From Bacillus sp. FSL K6-3431 (GTDB taxonomy: Bacteria; Bacillota; Bacilli; Bacillales; Bacillaceae_C): 64,000 nt of DNA. Both the position numbers and the translations under genes were made by a program. Shown here one piece after another: positions 35,739-43,196 of this stretch. Positions within the stretch are counted from its first letter, which is position 1; the number at the start of each line of letters is the position of its first letter. Where the stretch lies: positions 3,534,001-3,598,000 of the forward strand of contig NZ_JBBOCT010000001.1 of the NCBI RefSeq assembly GCF_038002605.1, written 5' to 3'. The notes under the pieces are model-generated. The model was not told the DNA's origin and ran no database searches. It saw only the letters and a list, made by a program, of their open reading frames with translations.

Positions 35739-35842
35739 TAAATGTGTATAGGTTTATGTGAGTTTATATAGCATATAGTTTCAATCTCGATTATAATGAG
35801 GAGTCGACTTTAATATTTTACGAGAGAAAGAAGGTTGTGCAT

Positions 35843-37033
35843 TTGTCACGAGATCAACGTAAAAAAATGATTATCTTAATGATAAATATGTTTATTGCCA
35901 TAGGAAGTTTTGGCATTATCATTCCTATATTGCCAGCATATTTGAAGTCTATTGGCGAGGGCGGTACGGCAGCGGGATTAATGATTGCCATCTTTGCTGG
36001 GGCACAGTTGCTTGTATCACCGATTGCCGGTAAGTGGACAGATCAATATGGACGCCGAAAAATGATTATTTCGGGACTTAGTGGTTTGGCTTTATCGATG
36101 TTTGTTTTTTACTTTTCTGATTCGCTGATCGTGCTTTATATATCACGTGTCATTGGTGGAATTGGTGCAGCATTGTTAGTACCCGCTATTTTTGCATATG
36201 TAGCTGATATTACAACAATGGACCAGCGAGCAAAAGGAAATAGTTATATTTCAGCGGCTATGTCTTTAGGTATTGTAATTGGACCAGGTATCGGAGGGTT
36301 CTTAGCAGACTTTGGTTTGAAAGTACCCCTACTTGTATCCGCTATCGTAGGAGTCGTTGCGGTTATCTTTTCGACCTTTGTTCTAAAGGAAAGTATGGGA
36401 ACGGATAGTTATGTACCTGAAGACGATTCAGAGCCTATGCTTAAAAAGCTTGGACAATCTTTTACCAAACCATACTTTATTCCACTCGTTATTATTCTTG
36501 TAATGAGTTTCGGTTTGATGGCATATGAATCTGTGCTAGGTTTATTTGTTGATAATCAGTTTGGAGCCACACCAAAAGATATTGCCATTATGGTTACAGC
36601 AACTGGAATTGTGAGTGTCATCGTCCAATTGTTTGCTGTGGATCGTCTCGTGAGTCGTTTTGGAGAAGCGGCAGTGTTAAATATATTTCTTGGTGTCGCA
36701 GCAGGTGGATTTTTATTATCATTATTTGCCCCAACCTACGAAGTATTCTTTGTCGTCACAACGATTATTTTTCTTTCCACATCGATTTTGAGACCAGTTT
36801 TGACGACACTTATATCAAAACTTGCAGGAAATGAGCAAGGGTTTGCGATGGGAATGAATAATGCGTATATGAGTATTGGAAACATTCTTGGTCCGCTACT
36901 TGCTGGACTACTATACGACGTTCATATCACCTACCCATTTGTCCTTGGTCTGATTGTTCTTGTAATTACGCTGCTTGTGTCGATGAAATGGAAAAGCAAA
37001 AGCAAAGGTAATCTTTTAGAGGCGGCAAAATAA
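35843..37033 (+). CDS. MFS multidrug efflux transporter, Bmr/NorA type
   Basis: A 396-residue, 12-helix drug:proton antiporter. Motif A appears as GKWTDQYGRRKMII (residues 64-77). The antiporter motif C is GIVIGPGIGGFLADFG. I take the TTG at 35843, with AGAAGG eight bases upstream; a GTG at 35837 is also in frame. The Mta/TipA-like MerR gene just downstream is the probable activator, as in known MerR-pump pairs. Drug range cannot be predicted. Confidence 0.85.
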   Translation: MSRDQRKKMIILMINMFIAIGSFGIIIPILPAYLKSIGEGGTAAGLMIAIFAGAQLLVSPIAGKWTDQYGRRKMIISGLSGLALSMFVFYFSDSLIVLYISRVIGGIGAALLVPAIFAYVADITTMDQRAKGNSYISAAMSLGIVIGPGIGGFLADFGLKVPLLVSAIVGVVAVIFSTFVLKESMGTDSYVPEDDSEPMLKKLGQSFTKPYFIPLVIILVMSFGLMAYESVLGLFVDNQFGATPKDIAIMVTATGIVSVIVQLFAVDRLVSRFGEAAVLNIFLGVAAGGFLLSLFAPTYEVFFVVTTIIFLSTSILRPVLTTLISKLAGNEQGFAMGMNNAYMSIGNILGPLLAGLLYDVHITYPFVLGLIVLVITLLVSMKWKSKSKGNLLEAAK

Positions 37034-37040
37034 AAACATT

Positions 37041-37102
37041 AAGGTGTCTGACCCCTGTTGCAGTGAAGCGTTACTGTAATGGGGGGCAGACACCTTTTTT
37101 TA
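37041..37102. repeat. Dispersed palindrome, family A, copy 6 (probable terminator)
   Basis: AAGGTGTCTGACCCC at the left, GGGGGGCAGACACCTT at the right, then a T-run. It lies between the pump gene and its regulator and probably terminates the pump transcript. Confidence 0.85.
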
Positions 37103-37104
37103 AT

Positions 37105-37141
37105 AAGGTATTGACTCTGACGTAACGTGATACCTTATAGT
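37105..37141 (+). promoter_or_regulatory. MerR-type promoter with 19-bp spacer and operator dyad
   Basis: TTGACT (37111-37116) and TATAGT (37136-37141) are separated by 19 bp, the over-long spacing typical of MerR-activated promoters. A dyad AAGGTAT/ATACCTT spans 37105-37136 exactly across the spacer. It drives the regulator itself. Confidence 0.75.
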
Positions 37142-37166
37142 GATAAGTGAAGGGAGACAAGACGAA

Positions 37167-37907
37167 GTGAAAGTTAAAGAAGTAGCTAACTTAGTTGGAA
37201 TTAGTGTGCGCACACTACATCATTATGATGAAATCGGGTTATTAATCCCGCAAGAGACAACTGAATCGGGATATCGTATTTACTCCGAAGATAATCTTGA
37301 GACACTCCAGCAAATTTTGTTTTTTAAAGAACTTGGCTTCCCTTTAAAGAAAATCAAAGAAGTAATTAATAGTCCTTCGTTCGACCGACAAGAGGCGTTA
37401 GATTTGCATCGAAAAATGCTACTAGATAAACGTAACCGACTGGATCAAATGATCGCGACGATTGAAAAAACGATGAAATATTCGAAAGGAGAAATAGAAA
37501 TGTCTAATAAGGAAAAGTTTGAAGGATTTGACTTTAGCCAAAATCCATATGAACAAGAAGCACGTGAACGATGGGGAGATAAAGCTGTAGATAAAGCGAA
37601 TGCAAAAGTAGAATCCATGACTAAGGATAAAAAGAAGGATTTTGAGGAAACATTTAATGCCATATATAGAAAGCTAGCCGATATCCGTCACATTGCTCCA
37701 GAATCAGAAGAAGCACAGACAGGAATCAAAGAGTGGTTTGAATTTTTGAATAAAATGGGTGATTATTCACTTAATGCATTCAAAGGTTTAGGCCAAATGT
37801 ATATCGATGATGAACGTTTTACAAAAAACATCGACCAATTTGGTGAAGGCTTAGCAAAATTCATGTGTGATGCTATGGCAGTTTTTGCAGATACAAATAA
37901 AAAGTAG
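37167..37907 (+). CDS. mta: MerR-family multidrug-sensing activator, Mta/TipA-like
   Basis: A 246-residue regulator. The N-terminal MerR helix-turn-helix and wing ([20 protein letters not shown]) is followed by a dimerisation coiled coil (about 80-115) and a C-terminal TipAS drug-binding domain (about 120-246) ending [20 protein letters not shown]. It resembles B. subtilis Mta along its full length. The GTG at 37167 follows GGGAG; an upstream ATG at 37140 overlaps the -10 box. It probably activates itself and perhaps the MFS pump. Confidence 0.85.
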
Positions 37908-38327: not shown

Positions 38328-38372
38328 TTGACACATAGAGTAATATAGGGTATTATTACTCTATCATATAGA
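38328..38372 (+). promoter_or_regulatory. Promoter and operator of the second PadR operon
   Basis: Consensus TTGACA (38328-38333), 17-bp spacer, TATTAT (38351-38356). A perfect 11-bp inverted repeat, ATAGAGTAATA (38335-38345) and TATTACTCTAT (38354-38364), covers the spacer and -10, and a further ATAGAG follows at 38367. Bound repressor would block RNA polymerase directly. Assignment to PadR is inference. Confidence 0.75.
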
Positions 38373-38394
38373 GCAGTTAGAGGTGAGGAGGAGC

Positions 38395-38724
38395 ATGACT
38401 ATTAGAGGTGACATTATTCGTGGGCATTTAGATTCGATTATATTGCGGTTAATTTATGAAAAAGATCAGTATGGTTATGAAATATCGAAGGAAATCAGTT
38501 TGAGAACGAATGACCGTTTCCAGATTAAAGAAGCAACATTATATGCCGTATTTCAACGGTTGGAAAGAAAAGAATTAATCGAGTCTTATGTTGGCAGTGT
38601 TTCCCGTGGAGGAAGAAGGAAGTATTACAGAATTACAACTTTAGGAAAAGCCTTTTTAAAAGAAAGTGTTCAAGAATGGCAAGAAATCAAGGAAATTATT
38701 GATGTGTTTATGGAGGGATTATAA
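38395..38724 (+). CDS. PadR-family transcriptional regulator (2)
   Basis: A 109-residue winged-helix repressor. IIRGHLDSIILRLIYEKDQY and GYEISKEI form the first helices, IKEATLYAVFQRLERKELIE the recognition helix and GRRKYYRITTLGKAFL the wing. GAGGAGG puts the start at the ATG at 38395. Its stop abuts the next gene directly. Likely represses its own operon through the dyad at 38335-38364. Confidence 0.92.
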   Translation: MTIRGDIIRGHLDSIILRLIYEKDQYGYEISKEISLRTNDRFQIKEATLYAVFQRLERKELIESYVGSVSRGGRRKYYRITTLGKAFLKESVQEWQEIKEIIDVFMEGL

Positions 38725-39123
38725 TTGCAAACAATTAAACGTCATGTAGATGAATTATTTAAGGATGTTCCGGAGAGCGAACAAAAAGAAATTATTAAAC
38801 AAGAAATCATCGAAAACCTTGAAGAAAAAACATTTGATTTAATGGAGCAGGGCAAAGAAGAGGAAGATGCGATTAATAAAACGCTGATCGAATTTGGAGA
38901 CATTGAGGATATAAAAAAAGAGCTCGGAGTAAAACAACCCGTAAAAAGGAATATGTCCAAAATAAATTTAGGATTTTCACTCTGGGGTAGTATTCTTATT
39001 ATTGCGCTATTTCTGTTCATTAACTTTTACTATACACCAAATACCATTTGGTTCGTGTATCCAACCTTTGCAGTTATCTGGTGGCCGTTAACAATGTTTT
39101 ATCATTGGTTACGTTCAAAATAA
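38725..39123 (+). CDS. HAAS-domain protein with a C-terminal two-helix module
   Basis: A 132-residue protein starting at TTG directly after the padR stop, with GGAGG at 38712-38716. Residues 1-68 form a helical HAAS-type domain (FKDVPESEQKEIIKQEIIEN, then the FGDIEDIKKELG end). Two membrane helices follow (about 82-101 and 109-128) with FINFYYTPNTIWFVYPTFAV and IWWPL. This second part is the same module that is repeated five times in the next protein. HAAS proteins commonly accompany PadR regulators; the function is unknown. Confidence 0.8.
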   Translation: MQTIKRHVDELFKDVPESEQKEIIKQEIIENLEEKTFDLMEQGKEEEDAINKTLIEFGDIEDIKKELGVKQPVKRNMSKINLGFSLWGSILIIALFLFINFYYTPNTIWFVYPTFAVIWWPLTMFYHWLRSK

Positions 39124-39135
39124 GGAGGGATACAA

Positions 39136-39918
39136 ATGGATAGACATAAAATTGGGTTTGCCATAGTAGCTAGTTTAATAAGTATCATTTTCATTATGAT
39201 TGTCAACTATTTGACTAGCCCGAATTATATGTGGTTTATTTACCCTGTTTTTGCACTGTTGTTCTGGCCAGGGAGCATTATTTTTATTGCGAAAAAAAAA
39301 TATAAACTGCAATCTATTTTCGGCAGTGTAGTCATAATTACATTTCTGATTATAACGAACTATCTTCATTCACCAGATTATCTTTGGTTTCACTATGCGA
39401 TTTTTCCAATCATTTGGTGGCCAGTTTCTGCGTTTTATGGCGAAAAAGCAAAGACATTATCATTCGCATTAATCGGAAGTATGAGTACGATTCTTTATTA
39501 CTCGTTGTTGAATGTCATCATGTCACATCAGCATCCATGGGCTATTTATCCTGCCTTTATTGTTCTATGGTGGCCACTCGCACTATACTATGCTCGAAAA
39601 AAGGATTATTTCGGTCTGTCCGTTTCCGGTAGTTTATTAACGATTTTATTTTTTATTACTGTCAATGCTGTTTCTTCTCCTAGTACAATTTGGGCTATTT
39701 ATCCTGCCTTTATTGTTCTATGGTGGCCACTCGCATTATACCATGCTCGAAAAAGGGATTATTTCGGCCTGTCCGTTTCTGGTAGTTTATTAACGATTTT
39801 ATTTTTTATCACAGTCAATGCTGTTTCTTCTCCTAGTACAATTTGGGCCATATACCCTATATTTATTGTTTTATGGTGGCCGTTAAGTATGTATTATTAC
39901 CAATTTAAAAGACGTTAA
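39136..39918 (+). CDS. Membrane protein of five tandem two-helix (2TM-like) repeats
   Basis: A 260-residue, highly hydrophobic protein with about ten membrane helices. The same unit is repeated with an exact 51-residue period; the anchor Trp of WxxYPxFxxxWWP falls at residues 33, 84, 135, 186 and 237. Each unit has one helix ending in NxxxSP, then the WxxYPxF helix ending WWPL. The unit resembles the bacterial 2TM domain (inference). Units 3 and 4 are almost identical in DNA. No enzymatic motif is seen. AAGGAGG precedes the ATG. Third gene of the PadR-HAAS operon; role unknown. Confidence 0.85.
   Translation: MDRHKIGFAIVASLISIIFIMIVNYLTSPNYMWFIYPVFALLFWPGSIIFIAKKKYKLQSIFGSVVIITFLIITNYLHSPDYLWFHYAIFPIIWWPVSAFYGEKAKTLSFALIGSMSTILYYSLLNVIMSHQHPWAIYPAFIVLWWPLALYYARKKDYFGLSVSGSLLTILFFITVNAVSSPSTIWAIYPAFIVLWWPLALYHARKRDYFGLSVSGSLLTILFFITVNAVSSPSTIWAIYPIFIVLWWPLSMYYYQFKRR
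39541..39846 (+). repeat. Two near-identical 153-bp tandem units inside the membrane protein gene
   Basis: Units 39541-39693 and 39694-39846 differ at seven positions by my count, five silent and two changing Tyr to His and Lys to Arg. This indicates a recent in-frame duplication or gene conversion. Confidence 0.9.
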
Positions 39919-40420: not shown

Positions 40421-40494
40421 GTGTTCAAAAAGCCACCAAATGATAAACAACGAATTTATTCGTTGCCTTTGAAATTTGGCGCTTTTTTGAACAC
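40421..40494. repeat. Dispersed repeat, family C, compact copy
   Basis: GTGTTCAAAAAG at the left and CTTTTTTGAACAC at the right, with CACCAAATGATAAACAACGAAT and ATTCGTTG inside. The inner block matches, inverted, the right end of the copy at 61030. Confidence 0.8.
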
Positions 40495-40621: not shown

Positions 40622-41779
40622 ATGAAGAAGATATTATTTTTCCCCCTACTAAGCATGCCTTCAGGCCATCATCAAGTTGCAGATACACTTACGAGCTATT
40701 TACGCAAAAGAAACCCCAAATTTATTTGTAAAAAAATAGACCTACTAAGTAAGTGGAATCCTTTGTTTGAAAGTATTATTACGAAAACATATTTAGAGTG
40801 GATATATCATTCTCCTAAAACGTATGCATGGGTCTATAAACAAATGGCGCACACCTCTAAGGAGCAACGGTCGTATAAATATTATGAGTTTTTATTCTTA
40901 AAAAAGATGAAGCAGATCATATCTGAAGAAAAACCGGATCTGATTATTTGCACACACGGATTCCCATCCTACTTTCTAAGTAGACTGAAAACACGGGATC
41001 AATGTCAAATACCAGTTATCAATGTGTACACAGATTTTTTTGTGAACGATGTTTGGGGAAGAGAGGGAATAGATTATCATTTTGTACCAAGTCAAGTAGT
41101 GAAGAATGAATTATTGGAGAAAAGTGGCGTTTCTGAAGGGCAGATATTTATTACCGGAATACCCATTGCGGAACAATTTGATAAACGACTGAATTCAATT
41201 AAAGGTAGATCCGGGTGCAATGTTTTAGTATCTGGGGGAAGTGTTGGACTGGGAAATATGATGGATCTTTTGCAGCGACAAAAAGAGGATAAAGAAATAG
41301 AATACTTTGTTTTATGTGGAAAGAATAAAAAACTTTATCAAAGTATTGTTCGTCTTAATTATAAGAACATCCATCCGATTCCCTATATTTCATCAAAAGA
41401 GAAAATGAATGAATTATATAATAAAGTGGACGCGATCATTACGAAGCCAGGTGGTGTGACCATTAGTGAGGCTCTGATGAAAGGTTTACCTATTTTTATT
41501 CACTCCGCTCTACCAGGACAAGAGGAAATTAATTTAAAATTTTTAAAAGAAATGAAGCTTGTACATGAACTAAATGATAAACAATCACTGGAAGATCAGC
41601 TCATAGATTTTTTCAAAGACACATTACTATTTGATCGATTTCAAGATTCAGTGCAAAGATATTTAAGTGAATTAGAGGCTGGTAAGCCCGAGTATATTTC
41701 AACTTTAATTGACTCTGTGATTGAGACAAATGATACAGCCTGGATTAGTGAGATAGAAAGAAGGAAAAAGGTGCAATGA
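40622..41779 (+). CDS. Glycosyltransferase of the MGDG synthase/UgtP type
   Basis: A 385-residue GT28-type enzyme. The N-terminal MGDG-synthase domain contains SMPSGHHQVADTL and PDLIICTHGFPSYFLSR. The C-terminal nucleotide-sugar domain has VSGGSVGLGNM, KPGGVTISEALMKGLPIF and PGQEEINLKF. It probably glycosylates diacylglycerol at the inner face of the membrane; closer B. subtilis relatives include UgtP and YkoN. First gene of a coupled three-gene operon. The sugar donor is not readable from sequence. Confidence 0.87.
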   Translation: MKKILFFPLLSMPSGHHQVADTLTSYLRKRNPKFICKKIDLLSKWNPLFESIITKTYLEWIYHSPKTYAWVYKQMAHTSKEQRSYKYYEFLFLKKMKQIISEEKPDLIICTHGFPSYFLSRLKTRDQCQIPVINVYTDFFVNDVWGREGIDYHFVPSQVVKNELLEKSGVSEGQIFITGIPIAEQFDKRLNSIKGRSGCNVLVSGGSVGLGNMMDLLQRQKEDKEIEYFVLCGKNKKLYQSIVRLNYKNIHPIPYISSKEKMNELYNKVDAIITKPGGVTISEALMKGLPIFIHSALPGQEEINLKFLKEMKLVHELNDKQSLEDQLIDFFKDTLLFDRFQDSVQRYLSELEAGKPEYISTLIDSVIETNDTAWISEIERRKKVQ

Positions 41780-42393
41780 TTCAACAATTCTTAGAATGGC
41801 TAAATACAATTGGAATTGCCGGTTTATTTTTATCCATGTTTTTAGAAGGATCATCTCTACCCTTTCCAGGTTTGGTTATTGTACTTTCATATGGATATTT
41901 ATTATCTCCGGGATATATAAATACAGCTTTCATCGCACTGGGCATGAGTATTTTTTACACTCTTGCTAGCCTTATTCCTTATTTTATAGGGGCAAAGCTT
42001 GAAAGACATCTCCCAAAGAAACTGAAAAAGGGGTTAGAGAAAGGAATCGTATTATTCAATCGCTATGGAATTTGGAGCATAGCACTTTCTCGACCATTTG
42101 GTATTGGTAATTATATTTCGTATGTAGCGGGTATAGGGAAAGTGAACTTATTTAAATATTTTATCTTAACTTTTTTAGGGATATACCCGTGGTCATACGT
42201 AATGATTCTGCTAGGAAATTACTTTAAAGGGAATTATGAGACATTCAAGGACTATTTCAGCTCCTACGGCATATACGTTTATCTATTCATAGCAGTTATC
42301 TTAATATTCATAGGATTATTATTTTATTATAAAAAATCAAAACAGAGAAATGTAGAATTATCTGATTTAGGTGAAGGAGGACGTAGTAAATGA
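41776..42393 (+). CDS. DedA-family membrane protein
   Basis: A 205-residue protein with about five membrane segments. The signature runs FLEGSSLPFPGLVIVLSYGY near residue 22, then LSRPFGIGNYISYVAGIGKV, and a final helix followed by a basic tail. DedA/VTT proteins are linked to lipid (undecaprenyl phosphate or phosphatidylethanolamine) scrambling. The ATG overlaps the preceding stop as ATGA, so translation is coupled with the glycosyltransferase. Confidence 0.9.
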   Translation: MIQQFLEWLNTIGIAGLFLSMFLEGSSLPFPGLVIVLSYGYLLSPGYINTAFIALGMSIFYTLASLIPYFIGAKLERHLPKKLKKGLEKGIVLFNRYGIWSIALSRPFGIGNYISYVAGIGKVNLFKYFILTFLGIYPWSYVMILLGNYFKGNYETFKDYFSSYGIYVYLFIAVILIFIGLLFYYKKSKQRNVELSDLGEGGRSK

Positions 42394-43196
42394 AACAAAC
42401 GGGAGTGTCACTGGGCGGCGGCTCTCTTAGGGGAGTTGCTCATATAGGCGCATTAAAAGAACTAATAATCAATGATATTGAAATCACTCATATAGCAGGA
42501 ACAAGTGCTGGATCTATGGTTGGCGGTCTATTGGCGTGTGGCATGAATCCTGAAAAGATGCAAAGCGTTGTTCATGATGTTTCCATTCGTCGCCATATTG
42601 ATATTGGCTTCAATAGAAAGGGCTGGATAAAGGGTGACAGAATTTATAATACTTTACTAAAATGGACTGAGGGAAAGCATTTTTCGGATTTGGATATTCC
42701 ATTCGCGGTCATTTGTGTAGATCTTATTTCTGGTGAAATGGTCGTTATTGATTCTGGAGAAGTAGCACTTGCCATTCGTGCCAGTATTGCGATACCAGGT
42801 CTATTTTCTCCAGTAGAAATAGGCAATAAATTATTAGTTGATGGCTATATATTAAATAATAACCCTGCTGATATTGTCAGAAGTATGGGTGCGGAAAAAG
42901 TGACATCTGTAAGAGTTCGAAGTTCTAATCCTCATTATCCTTCTAATTTTTTTTCCGTTTTAAACAGATATATTGATATTGCTAGTCAAAAAAATACTGA
43001 TCGCTGCTTAGAGGAGCATGCCGATTTATTAATAGATATCGACCTACACGATGTAGGGAGATTCGAAACCAAGTCTTTATCGAAATCAATTGACTTGGGG
43101 CAAGAGGAAACAAGGAAAGTATTATTTAATAAAAAAAATGAAGAGAGTAATAATAATATTATTTACATGGATCATTGGTTGAAAAAAGTCCGTTAA
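42390..43196 (+). CDS. Patatin-like phospholipase
   Basis: A 268-residue lipid acyl hydrolase. The oxyanion loop GGGSLRG is at residues 9-15, the nucleophile Ser39 in GTSAGSM, and the catalytic Asp151 in VDGYILNNNP: a complete Ser-Asp dyad. GGAGGACG gives the ribosome binding site and the ATG overlaps the dedA stop. Co-translation with a lipid glycosyltransferase and a DedA protein suggests membrane lipid turnover or remodelling (inference). Confidence 0.92.
   Translation: MKQTGVSLGGGSLRGVAHIGALKELIINDIEITHIAGTSAGSMVGGLLACGMNPEKMQSVVHDVSIRRHIDIGFNRKGWIKGDRIYNTLLKWTEGKHFSDLDIPFAVICVDLISGEMVVIDSGEVALAIRASIAIPGLFSPVEIGNKLLVDGYILNNNPADIVRSMGAEKVTSVRVRSSNPHYPSNFFSVLNRYIDIASQKNTDRCLEEHADLLIDIDLHDVGRFETKSLSKSIDLGQEETRKVLFNKKNEESNNNIIYMDHWLKKVR

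Follow-up and report, generated by a model that had tools for sequence, protein, structure and literature searches.

In Bacillus subtilis, membrane thickness and fluidity are controlled by the DesK–DesR–Des system. DesK acts as a thickness sensor (PMC11237406). It has been proposed that the HAAS–PadR dyad can serve in envelope stress in place of two-component systems, with HAAS changing shape on membrane signals and passing the change to PadR (PMC11237479). Listeria cells that have lost LltR overproduce the DUF1700 membrane protein Lmo0600 and for that reason grow poorly in the cold (PMC6624303), and the DUF1048 protein LftS is not needed for repression by its partner LftR (PMC4517056). When overexpressed, BC4207, a membrane protein of four predicted helices whose gene shares an operon with the PadR gene BC4206, makes B. 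cereus resistant to enterocin AS-48. AS-48 leaves DNA binding by this PadR unchanged in vitro, so sensing is indirect (PMC2774856 and PMC3506622).

The locus described here lies in the window, a 64,000-nucleotide stretch of the genome of Bacillus sp. FSL K6-3431. It resembles the HAAS–PadR dyad (PMC11237479), with its Listeria examples LltR–Lmo0600 and LftR–LftS, in placing a standalone PadR beside an N-terminal helical signalling domain with membrane helices, and in a probably autoregulated operon. It differs in its membrane part, a single 51-residue hairpin that is repeated 4–13 times in a separate protein. In addition, the GxP motif is not conserved in 120 relatives and is absent in the window, and the operon of some members contains a desaturase. 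The same desaturase type in the operon of some members and a membrane protein as likely sensor recall DesK–DesR–Des, but here a repressor and a membrane partner replace the kinase and response regulator, no kinase gene is present in the operon, and an array is added. The dyad is of a known kind; neither a hairpin array of variable length nor a link to a desaturase appeared among the papers listed in the literature searches. The operon comprises the following features.

38328..38356, plus strand: candidate promoter of the operon, TTGACA-17-TATTAT (11 of 12 consensus positions, best of 11 sites)
38335..38364, plus strand: putative PadR operator, ATAGAGTAAT-N10-ATTACTCTAT, over the spacer and −10 box (20/20 match, conserved)
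38395..38724, plus strand (ORF listed from GTG 38383): PadR-family repressor (Pfam PadR, operon position)
38725..39123, plus strand: 132-residue protein with a perm_prefix_1 (HAAS-like) domain, predicted cytosolic, and one 51-residue hairpin unit (NCBIfam)
38953..39105, plus strand: hairpin unit H, residues 77–127 of the HAAS-like protein, anchor Trp109 (motif, unit comparison)
39136..39918, plus strand: five-unit hairpin array protein of 260 residues with ten predicted membrane helices (ORF, motif, self-comparison, AlphaFold2)

Among the matches listed in open-licence PubMed Central, the terms DUF6320 and "permease prefix domain" did not occur, nothing relevant was found on variable hairpin-repeat membrane proteins, and the HAAS, PadR, LftS, DUF1700 and fluidity literature contained neither a variable array nor a desaturase link. 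A search of the same collection for PadR with desaturase, DesK and Bacillus returned no related work, as judged by titles and the beginnings of abstracts.

The array protein and its 51-residue units

The ORF at 39136–39918 contains all of the tryptophans designated as repeat anchors in the initial annotation, at residues 33, 84, 135, 186 and 237. The exact 51-residue period claimed there is reproduced when the protein is compared with itself. The mean BLOSUM score peaks solely at lags 51, 102 and 153, with values of 2.68, 2.04 and 1.96, and the next lag reaches −0.19. The best value at any lag in 1000 shuffles that kept the hydrophobic/polar pattern is 0.42. The peaks persist when residues 186–236 are omitted (1.95 at lag 51). 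U4 and U5 are 88% identical, U3 and U4 51%, U3 and U5 45%, and the remaining pairs 27–39%. By unit class, the array is composed of U1-U2-U3-U4-U4′.

39136..39288, plus strand: unit U1, class U1 (unit classification)
39289..39441, plus strand: unit U2, class U2 (unit classification)
39442..39594, plus strand: unit U3, class U3 (unit classification)
39595..39747, plus strand: unit U4, class U4, newly duplicated (classification, codon comparison, tree)
39748..39900, plus strand: unit U5, class U4, bearing the original C-terminal end (classification, codon comparison, tree)

Conservation was assessed over 623 full-length units out of 650 detected in the best 120 of 378 database relatives. The strictest positions are Asn24 (98%), Trp33 (97%), Trp44 (95%) and Pro45 (93%), followed by Pro29 (84%), Tyr36 (75%), Ser28 (72%) and Pro37 (67%). 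In the same units, lysine and arginine are concentrated at positions 1–6 and amount to 0–4% in the loop at positions 28–36. This distribution argues for an even number of helices per unit, and each unit is predicted to form a membrane hairpin. If the positive-inside rule holds here, all linkers would face the cytosol together with the HAAS-like domain, and the short loops would be outside.

An AlphaFold2 model of the array, based on a 24-row alignment, has a mean pLDDT of 92.9 and a pTM of 0.77. It contains a helix pair in each unit; in the final two units, the second helix is interrupted. Foldseek returned no matches to the model at E 0.001 or better, and the VIA ranks are weak and TPR-like, a fold match without significance. 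These outcomes do not by themselves mark the fold as new or as different. The array differs from soluble α-α repeat proteins of the TPR type in that it is predicted to be membrane-embedded and has a 51-residue unit. A sequence search of the PDB with the array gave no match up to E 10.

The relation to Pfam 2TM (PF13239) put forward in the initial annotation is weakly suggested: the relative P0107 scores 26.4 bits and exceeds the cut-off of 24.8, whereas the window protein stays below it at 16.5. The DUF6320 profile (PF19845, cut-off 29.9) behaves similarly, with 16.5 bits for the window array and 30.6 for the relative P0021. Apart from these weak profile matches, the family differs from both in forming tandem arrays of variable number. 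A scan of 24 family members, including that of the window, yielded matches at E 0.001 to DUF6320 (15), 2TM (4) and DUF5808 (1), and to no other family. A known non-repetitive transporter family covering the full length had been named beforehand as an observation that would speak against the repeat. None was found: the window array passes no transporter cut-off in Pfam or NCBIfam, and no transporter family is among the matches of the 24 members, so this candidate was rejected. An origin in a mobile element or phage was likewise rejected, as 72,556 plasmid and 50,697 phage records contain no array relative at E 1e-5.

Unit duplication and unit number

A tandem duplication of 153 bp gave rise to the fifth unit of the window protein.

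39538..39690, plus strand: first copy of the 153-bp tandem duplication, covering the second half of U3 and the first half of U4 (DNA repeat, codon comparison)
39691..39843, plus strand: second copy (DNA repeat, codon comparison)

The two copies are 95% identical in DNA sequence and differ in 7 codons, 5 of them silently. In register, each copy spans the stretch between one anchor Trp and the next, with the result that the new unit joins a U4-like first half to a U3-like second half. In a tree of 87 units and 51 columns, with 31 of 82 inner branches open and bootstrap values not settled, the four position classes separate, with a few rows of our groups outside the smallest clade (7 changes against a minimum of 4). 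U4 and U5 of the window form a sister pair (97/94), as do U4 and U5 of the relative P0016 (96/92). Five-unit proteins thus arose more than once; the origin of the five-unit state of P0021 is undecided in this tree. The earlier suggestion that the protein changes size by unit duplication is supported by these two independent duplications and by the varying counts among relatives.

The survey of related genomes proposed along with that suggestion revealed 4 to 13 units. Homologues lacking either variation in number or the 51-residue period would have spoken against the repeat; the number varies and the period is kept. Among 80 loci, the best of 98 encoding a relative, 75 have four units, three have six and two have eight. 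All five loci with more than four units carry Clostridia-type titles, and two with the same kind of title (L069 and L089) have four. The best 120 of 378 database relatives, from a search that admits just 0.55–1.75 times the query length, comprise 59 proteins with four units, 10 with five, 19 with six, 8 with seven, 22 with eight and 2 with nine. A second search used a nine-unit relative as query, and its best 120 of 162 proteins include 90 new ones: 2 with five units, 4 with six, 5 with seven, 26 with eight, 28 with nine, 22 with ten, and one each with 11, 12 and 13.

The eight units of P0025 are up to 96% identical to one another, and the 13-unit P0245 contains, as judged by eye, runs of near-identical units. 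In 60 of 61 proteins with at least five units, a U2-like unit neighbours a U3-like unit, 49 of them with a 10-bit margin on both, and the final unit is U4-like in 57 of the 61. Extra copies are U4-like near the C terminus, and U1- or H-like, or less clearly classed, near the N terminus. Two relatives from the same genus have 210 residues with three strict motifs each, and their apparent counterparts at L064 and L091 score four units. Few membrane proteins are known in which one short hairpin unit varies freely in number. The natural versions with 4 to 13 units allow the effect of repeat number to be tested directly.

At E 0.001, matches occur within the genus in 3 of 16 genomes, one of them the own genome, in 39 of 397 of the order and in 20 of 398 of the class, two of the latter being marginal (E above 4e-4). 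A profile search of the phylum sample has a match in 1 of 398 genomes, namely the own genome.

The HAAS-like partner, PadR and the operator

The protein encoded upstream of the array ends, as the initial annotation had claimed, in a sixth unit. Its Trp109 is present, and the unit is 31–43% identical to U1–U5. The assignment of the preceding domain to HAAS has strong support from one of two profiles. The protein scores 56.7 bits with NCBIfam perm_prefix_1, above the cut-off of 30, but 17.5 bits with Pfam HAAS, below the cut-off of 27. All 23 family members scanned, including that of the window, match perm_prefix_1 at E 0.001, and 10 of the 23 match Pfam HAAS at E 0.01 or better (best E 0.00092). 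The conserved GxP motif of the third HAAS helix was not found among 120 proteins: a GxP with differing letters occurs within the first 75 residues in 23 of them, and the window protein has none. FGDx, which we assume to take the place of the motif, is present as FGDI in 113 of the 120, in another form in 6 and in no form in 1. Given the score above the perm_prefix_1 but under the Pfam HAAS cut-off and the lack of a conserved GxP, the domain is called HAAS-like.

HAAS-like proteins contain one hairpin unit in 109 of 120 cases and two in 11. H is the most conserved unit class, with a mean identity of 68.7% compared with 44–58% for U1–U4, and its motif is kept in systems that lack an array. Both properties make the single HAAS-like hairpin the likelier sensor. 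The AlphaFold2 model of the HAAS-like protein, in which a three-helix core fold was examined, is poor (pLDDT 69.6, pTM 0.36), and Foldseek gave no matches to it at E 0.001. A PDB search with the HAAS-like profile gave 8 matches, none convincing (best E 0.067).

The PadR assignment of the first gene is corroborated by a Pfam PadR score of 68.6 bits (cut-off 27). ATG 38395 is the more likely start than GTG 38383 because AGGAGG stands just before it. The nearest structure is 9qbc (E 1.3e-30); 4esb (E 2.8e-12) and 4esf (E 2e-9), which we take to be B. cereus PadR structures, are more distant. The BC4206–BC4207 operon was considered as the same system and set aside as unlikely, the PadR proteins being only distantly alike.

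PadR lies immediately 5′ of the HAAS-like gene in 76 of 80 loci, with gaps of −55 to 4 nt. The exceptions are L063 and L091, which have no PadR match (L091 at a contig end), L085, with an overlapping ORF, and L089, where PadR and the HAAS-like gene are on the opposite strand. An ORF with one or two units adjoins the array in every locus except L063 (79 of 80). The region contains 11 promoter-like sites, compared with a mean of 11.3 in shuffles, and the promoter match alone is weak. The operator is conserved: of the 77 loci where PadR is on the plus strand, 72 match it at 15 or more of its 20 positions, a score reached by 8 of 1540 single-base shuffles of these upstream regions. The five loci with low scores are L074, L078, L083, L085 and L097.

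A scan of the own genome allowing up to three mismatches found one operator site, which is exact. A backwards control pattern also found one place, and weaker PadR sites are therefore not separable from chance. As far as the scan can tell, the single site limits the regulon to the PadR operon itself. The operon's own proteins are then its sole evident outputs, and the array is accordingly an effector or a component of an effector. PadR, the HAAS-like protein and the array probably constitute a self-repressed operon.

A second small palindrome, CTCTATCATATAGAG, at window positions 38359–38373 overlaps the downstream arm of the operator, and relatives keep at least its start (consensus ATTACTCTAtCAGATA). 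More than one binding register is possible for PadR.

The desaturase link and candidate functions

A fatty-acid desaturase gene is next 3′ of the array, on the same strand and at −3 to 62 nt, in 10 of 80 loci (L027–L031, L047, L057, L060, L072 and L076), which belong to Paenibacillus (5), Evansella, Heyndrickxia, Rossellomorea, Bacillus and Pseudalkalibacillus. In L087, the desaturase is the second gene after the array. The three operonic desaturases scanned all match PF00487, and the one typed by NCBIfam is a Delta-5 DesA (595 bits, cut-off 500). Of 55 other matched genomes, the locus was read in 49, which partly repeat the species of the 80 loci; a desaturase lies inside the ~1.5-kb flanks in 11 of the 49. 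The link also occurs in a second gene order. In G1033, G1049, G1018 and G1089, two operator-like sites (18–20/20) are followed by the desaturase, PadR and the HAAS-like gene. G1033 and G1049 have no array, G1018 has one broken into overlapping fragments, and that of G1089 has four units. With one desaturase per 4000 genes, random neighbours would give 10 of 80 loci with a probability of 1.5e-24 and 6 of 25 genera with 4e-17, rough estimates that rely on a count of genera by eye and treat neighbours as independent despite their common ancestry.

Desaturases were surveyed in 25 chosen genomes, 12 with an operonic copy and 13 without. A desaturase is present at E 1e-20 in 24 of the 25, and the operonic copy is the sole one in 11 of the 12. 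A DesR-like regulator adjoins 9 of 13 non-operonic copies and none of the 12 operonic ones (flanks of ~1.5 kb); DesR-like and DesK-like are names that we give by resemblance. One of these nine neighbours is the query itself, from the own genome, seven are 61–70% identical to it and one is 38% identical. No such regulator was seen in the ~1.5-kb flanks of the non-operonic desaturases of G012, G754 and G483 and the second copy of G1050. In two relatives, a DesK-like kinase and then a DesR-like regulator lie directly 3′ of the desaturase.

Within ~4 kb (less where contigs end), the desaturase is absent in the window and in 69 of 80 loci. PF00487 genes occur twice in the own genome, at 813 kb and at 4.16 Mb, and no operator-like site of at least 15/20 is near either of them; the best match beside the DesA-type gene at 813 kb is 12/20. 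The putative control of the Delta-5 desaturase has its genomic basis in the shared operon and operator sites of some genomes, not in that of the window, and would be a property of some members and not of this locus.

Other genes occupy the same place elsewhere. A ~195-residue protein is encoded on the same strand within 88 nt after the array in six loci, and an α/β hydrolase (one scanned) within 40 nt in seven Lysinibacillus loci. Members of the ~195-residue family stand after the array in several genera (L049:4855–5451, L050, L051, L059, L070, L087 and L091); neither Pfam nor NCBIfam contains a match to the L049 member, and no PDB match to it falls below E 0.045. One genome contains both a broken array behind desaturase, PadR and HAAS genes (L161:3353–4093) and a separate intact four-unit array (L162:2838–3473); the 7 kb read around the latter contain neither a PadR or HAAS-like gene nor an operator-like site.

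The operator and the desaturase link offer the best clue to function. We propose that the operon is a phosphorylation-free switch for membrane-lipid homeostasis, similar in role to DesK/DesR, with the array as its membrane-embedded output or tuner, and give this proposal an even chance of being correct. We infer PadR binding, contact between the HAAS-like protein and PadR, sensing of the membrane state and the biochemical action of the array. PadR would repress one promoter, its own, and the single hairpin of the HAAS-like protein would anchor the cytosolic signalling domain in the membrane. A change in bilayer order or thickness, or lipid stress, would be relayed by this hairpin, and the cytosolic domain would make PadR let go. 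The derepressed operon would then supply membrane-acting products, namely the array where present and, in many relatives, also the genome's DesA-type desaturase. As an output, the array would alter or stabilise the bilayer. As a tuner, it would make like-with-like contacts with the HAAS-like hairpin that set the strength of the response, with unit number as the adjustable parameter. Most likely it does both.

Anaerobes would not use an oxygen-dependent desaturase, so no desaturase use is expected at the Clostridia-type loci with six- and eight-unit arrays, which counts against a lipid switch. So do the absence of a desaturase near the operon in the window and in 69 of 80 loci, the lack of an operator-like site beside the own DesA-type gene, the presence of the ~195-residue protein or the hydrolase in the desaturase's place, the hit of the backwards control pattern and the poor HAAS-like model. 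The LftS result says nothing on derepression but shows no interplay of HAAS and PadR, and weighs on the same side. The desaturase link, together with the findings of PMC11237479, PMC6624303 and PMC2774856, nevertheless leads us to take the module as serving membrane homeostasis.

The array could instead confer immunity or resistance to membrane-active peptides; it would be controlled by PadR and induced by envelope damage, and its hairpins would shield the bilayer or bind the peptide. AS-48 resistance through BC4207, likewise from a PadR operon (PMC2774856 and PMC3506622), and the array and HAAS-like protein as the sole evident outputs of the window operon are consistent with such a role. It would leave the operonic desaturase in two gene orders unexplained, the window PadR is far closer to 9qbc than to 4esb and 4esf, and plasmid and phage records are free of arrays at E 1e-5; we regard it as unlikely. 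A function as transporter or lipid flippase, in which the repeats form the pathway and the HAAS-like protein and PadR sense the substrate, would account for the enzymes encoded beside the array, and the near-invariant polar Asn of each first helix and the aromatic motifs could line a path. The fixed U2-like/U3-like pair in 60 of 61 larger proteins also fits. A working path is hard to reconcile with 4 to 13 units among homologues, the window protein passes no transporter cut-off, and a transport function therefore seems quite improbable.

The array might also be a mere docking or titration partner of the HAAS-like hairpin, that is, a feedback brake with no membrane action of its own. Sensor and array are built of the same hairpin, the genome has a single operator site, and array-less systems exist, so the switch can do without the array. 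In the window operon, however, a circuit of this kind would lack an output, and the array of L162 stands alone in the 7 kb read, which leaves this role with little probability. Returning to membrane-lipid homeostasis, a more specific and doubtful form is that the hairpin repeat in the PadR-linked sensor and array makes a phosphorylation-free bilayer gauge that reads and resets membrane order, and that gain or loss of whole 153-bp units shifts the set point during evolution. If true, such a gauge would correspond, within the membrane, to soluble helical repeat proteins, and lipid desaturation could be controlled by it instead of by the DesK/DesR kinase pathway. The desaturase link itself suggests concretely what certain PadR/HAAS-like operons may sense. 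It also provides an alternative, open to testing, to the control of membrane fluidity by kinases, and a hypothesis of function for proteins labelled hypothetical or DUF6320 in their sources.

Several minor observations concern the own genome. The response regulator beside the desaturase at ~813 kb (L193:3579–4133) has a DNA-binding C-terminal part that looks decayed compared with relatives, and no DesK adjoins this desaturase. A loss of DesK from the genome was considered and dropped in view of a DesK-like kinase (65%) with an adjoining response regulator at 903 kb. In the window, ~700 nt downstream of the operon, three overlapping same-strand genes at 40622–43196 encode an MGDG-synthase-type glycosyltransferase, a VTT/DedA protein and a patatin-like phospholipase, and are probably a separate lipid operon. 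A 21-nt inverted repeat with 86% complementarity at 40421–40494, between the PadR operon and the lipid genes, may be a terminator; a simple terminator scan of the region found none. Upstream, at 35837–37907, an MFS transporter gene followed by a gene for a MerR regulator with a TipAS antibiotic-recognition domain is likely a drug-responsive efflux pair.
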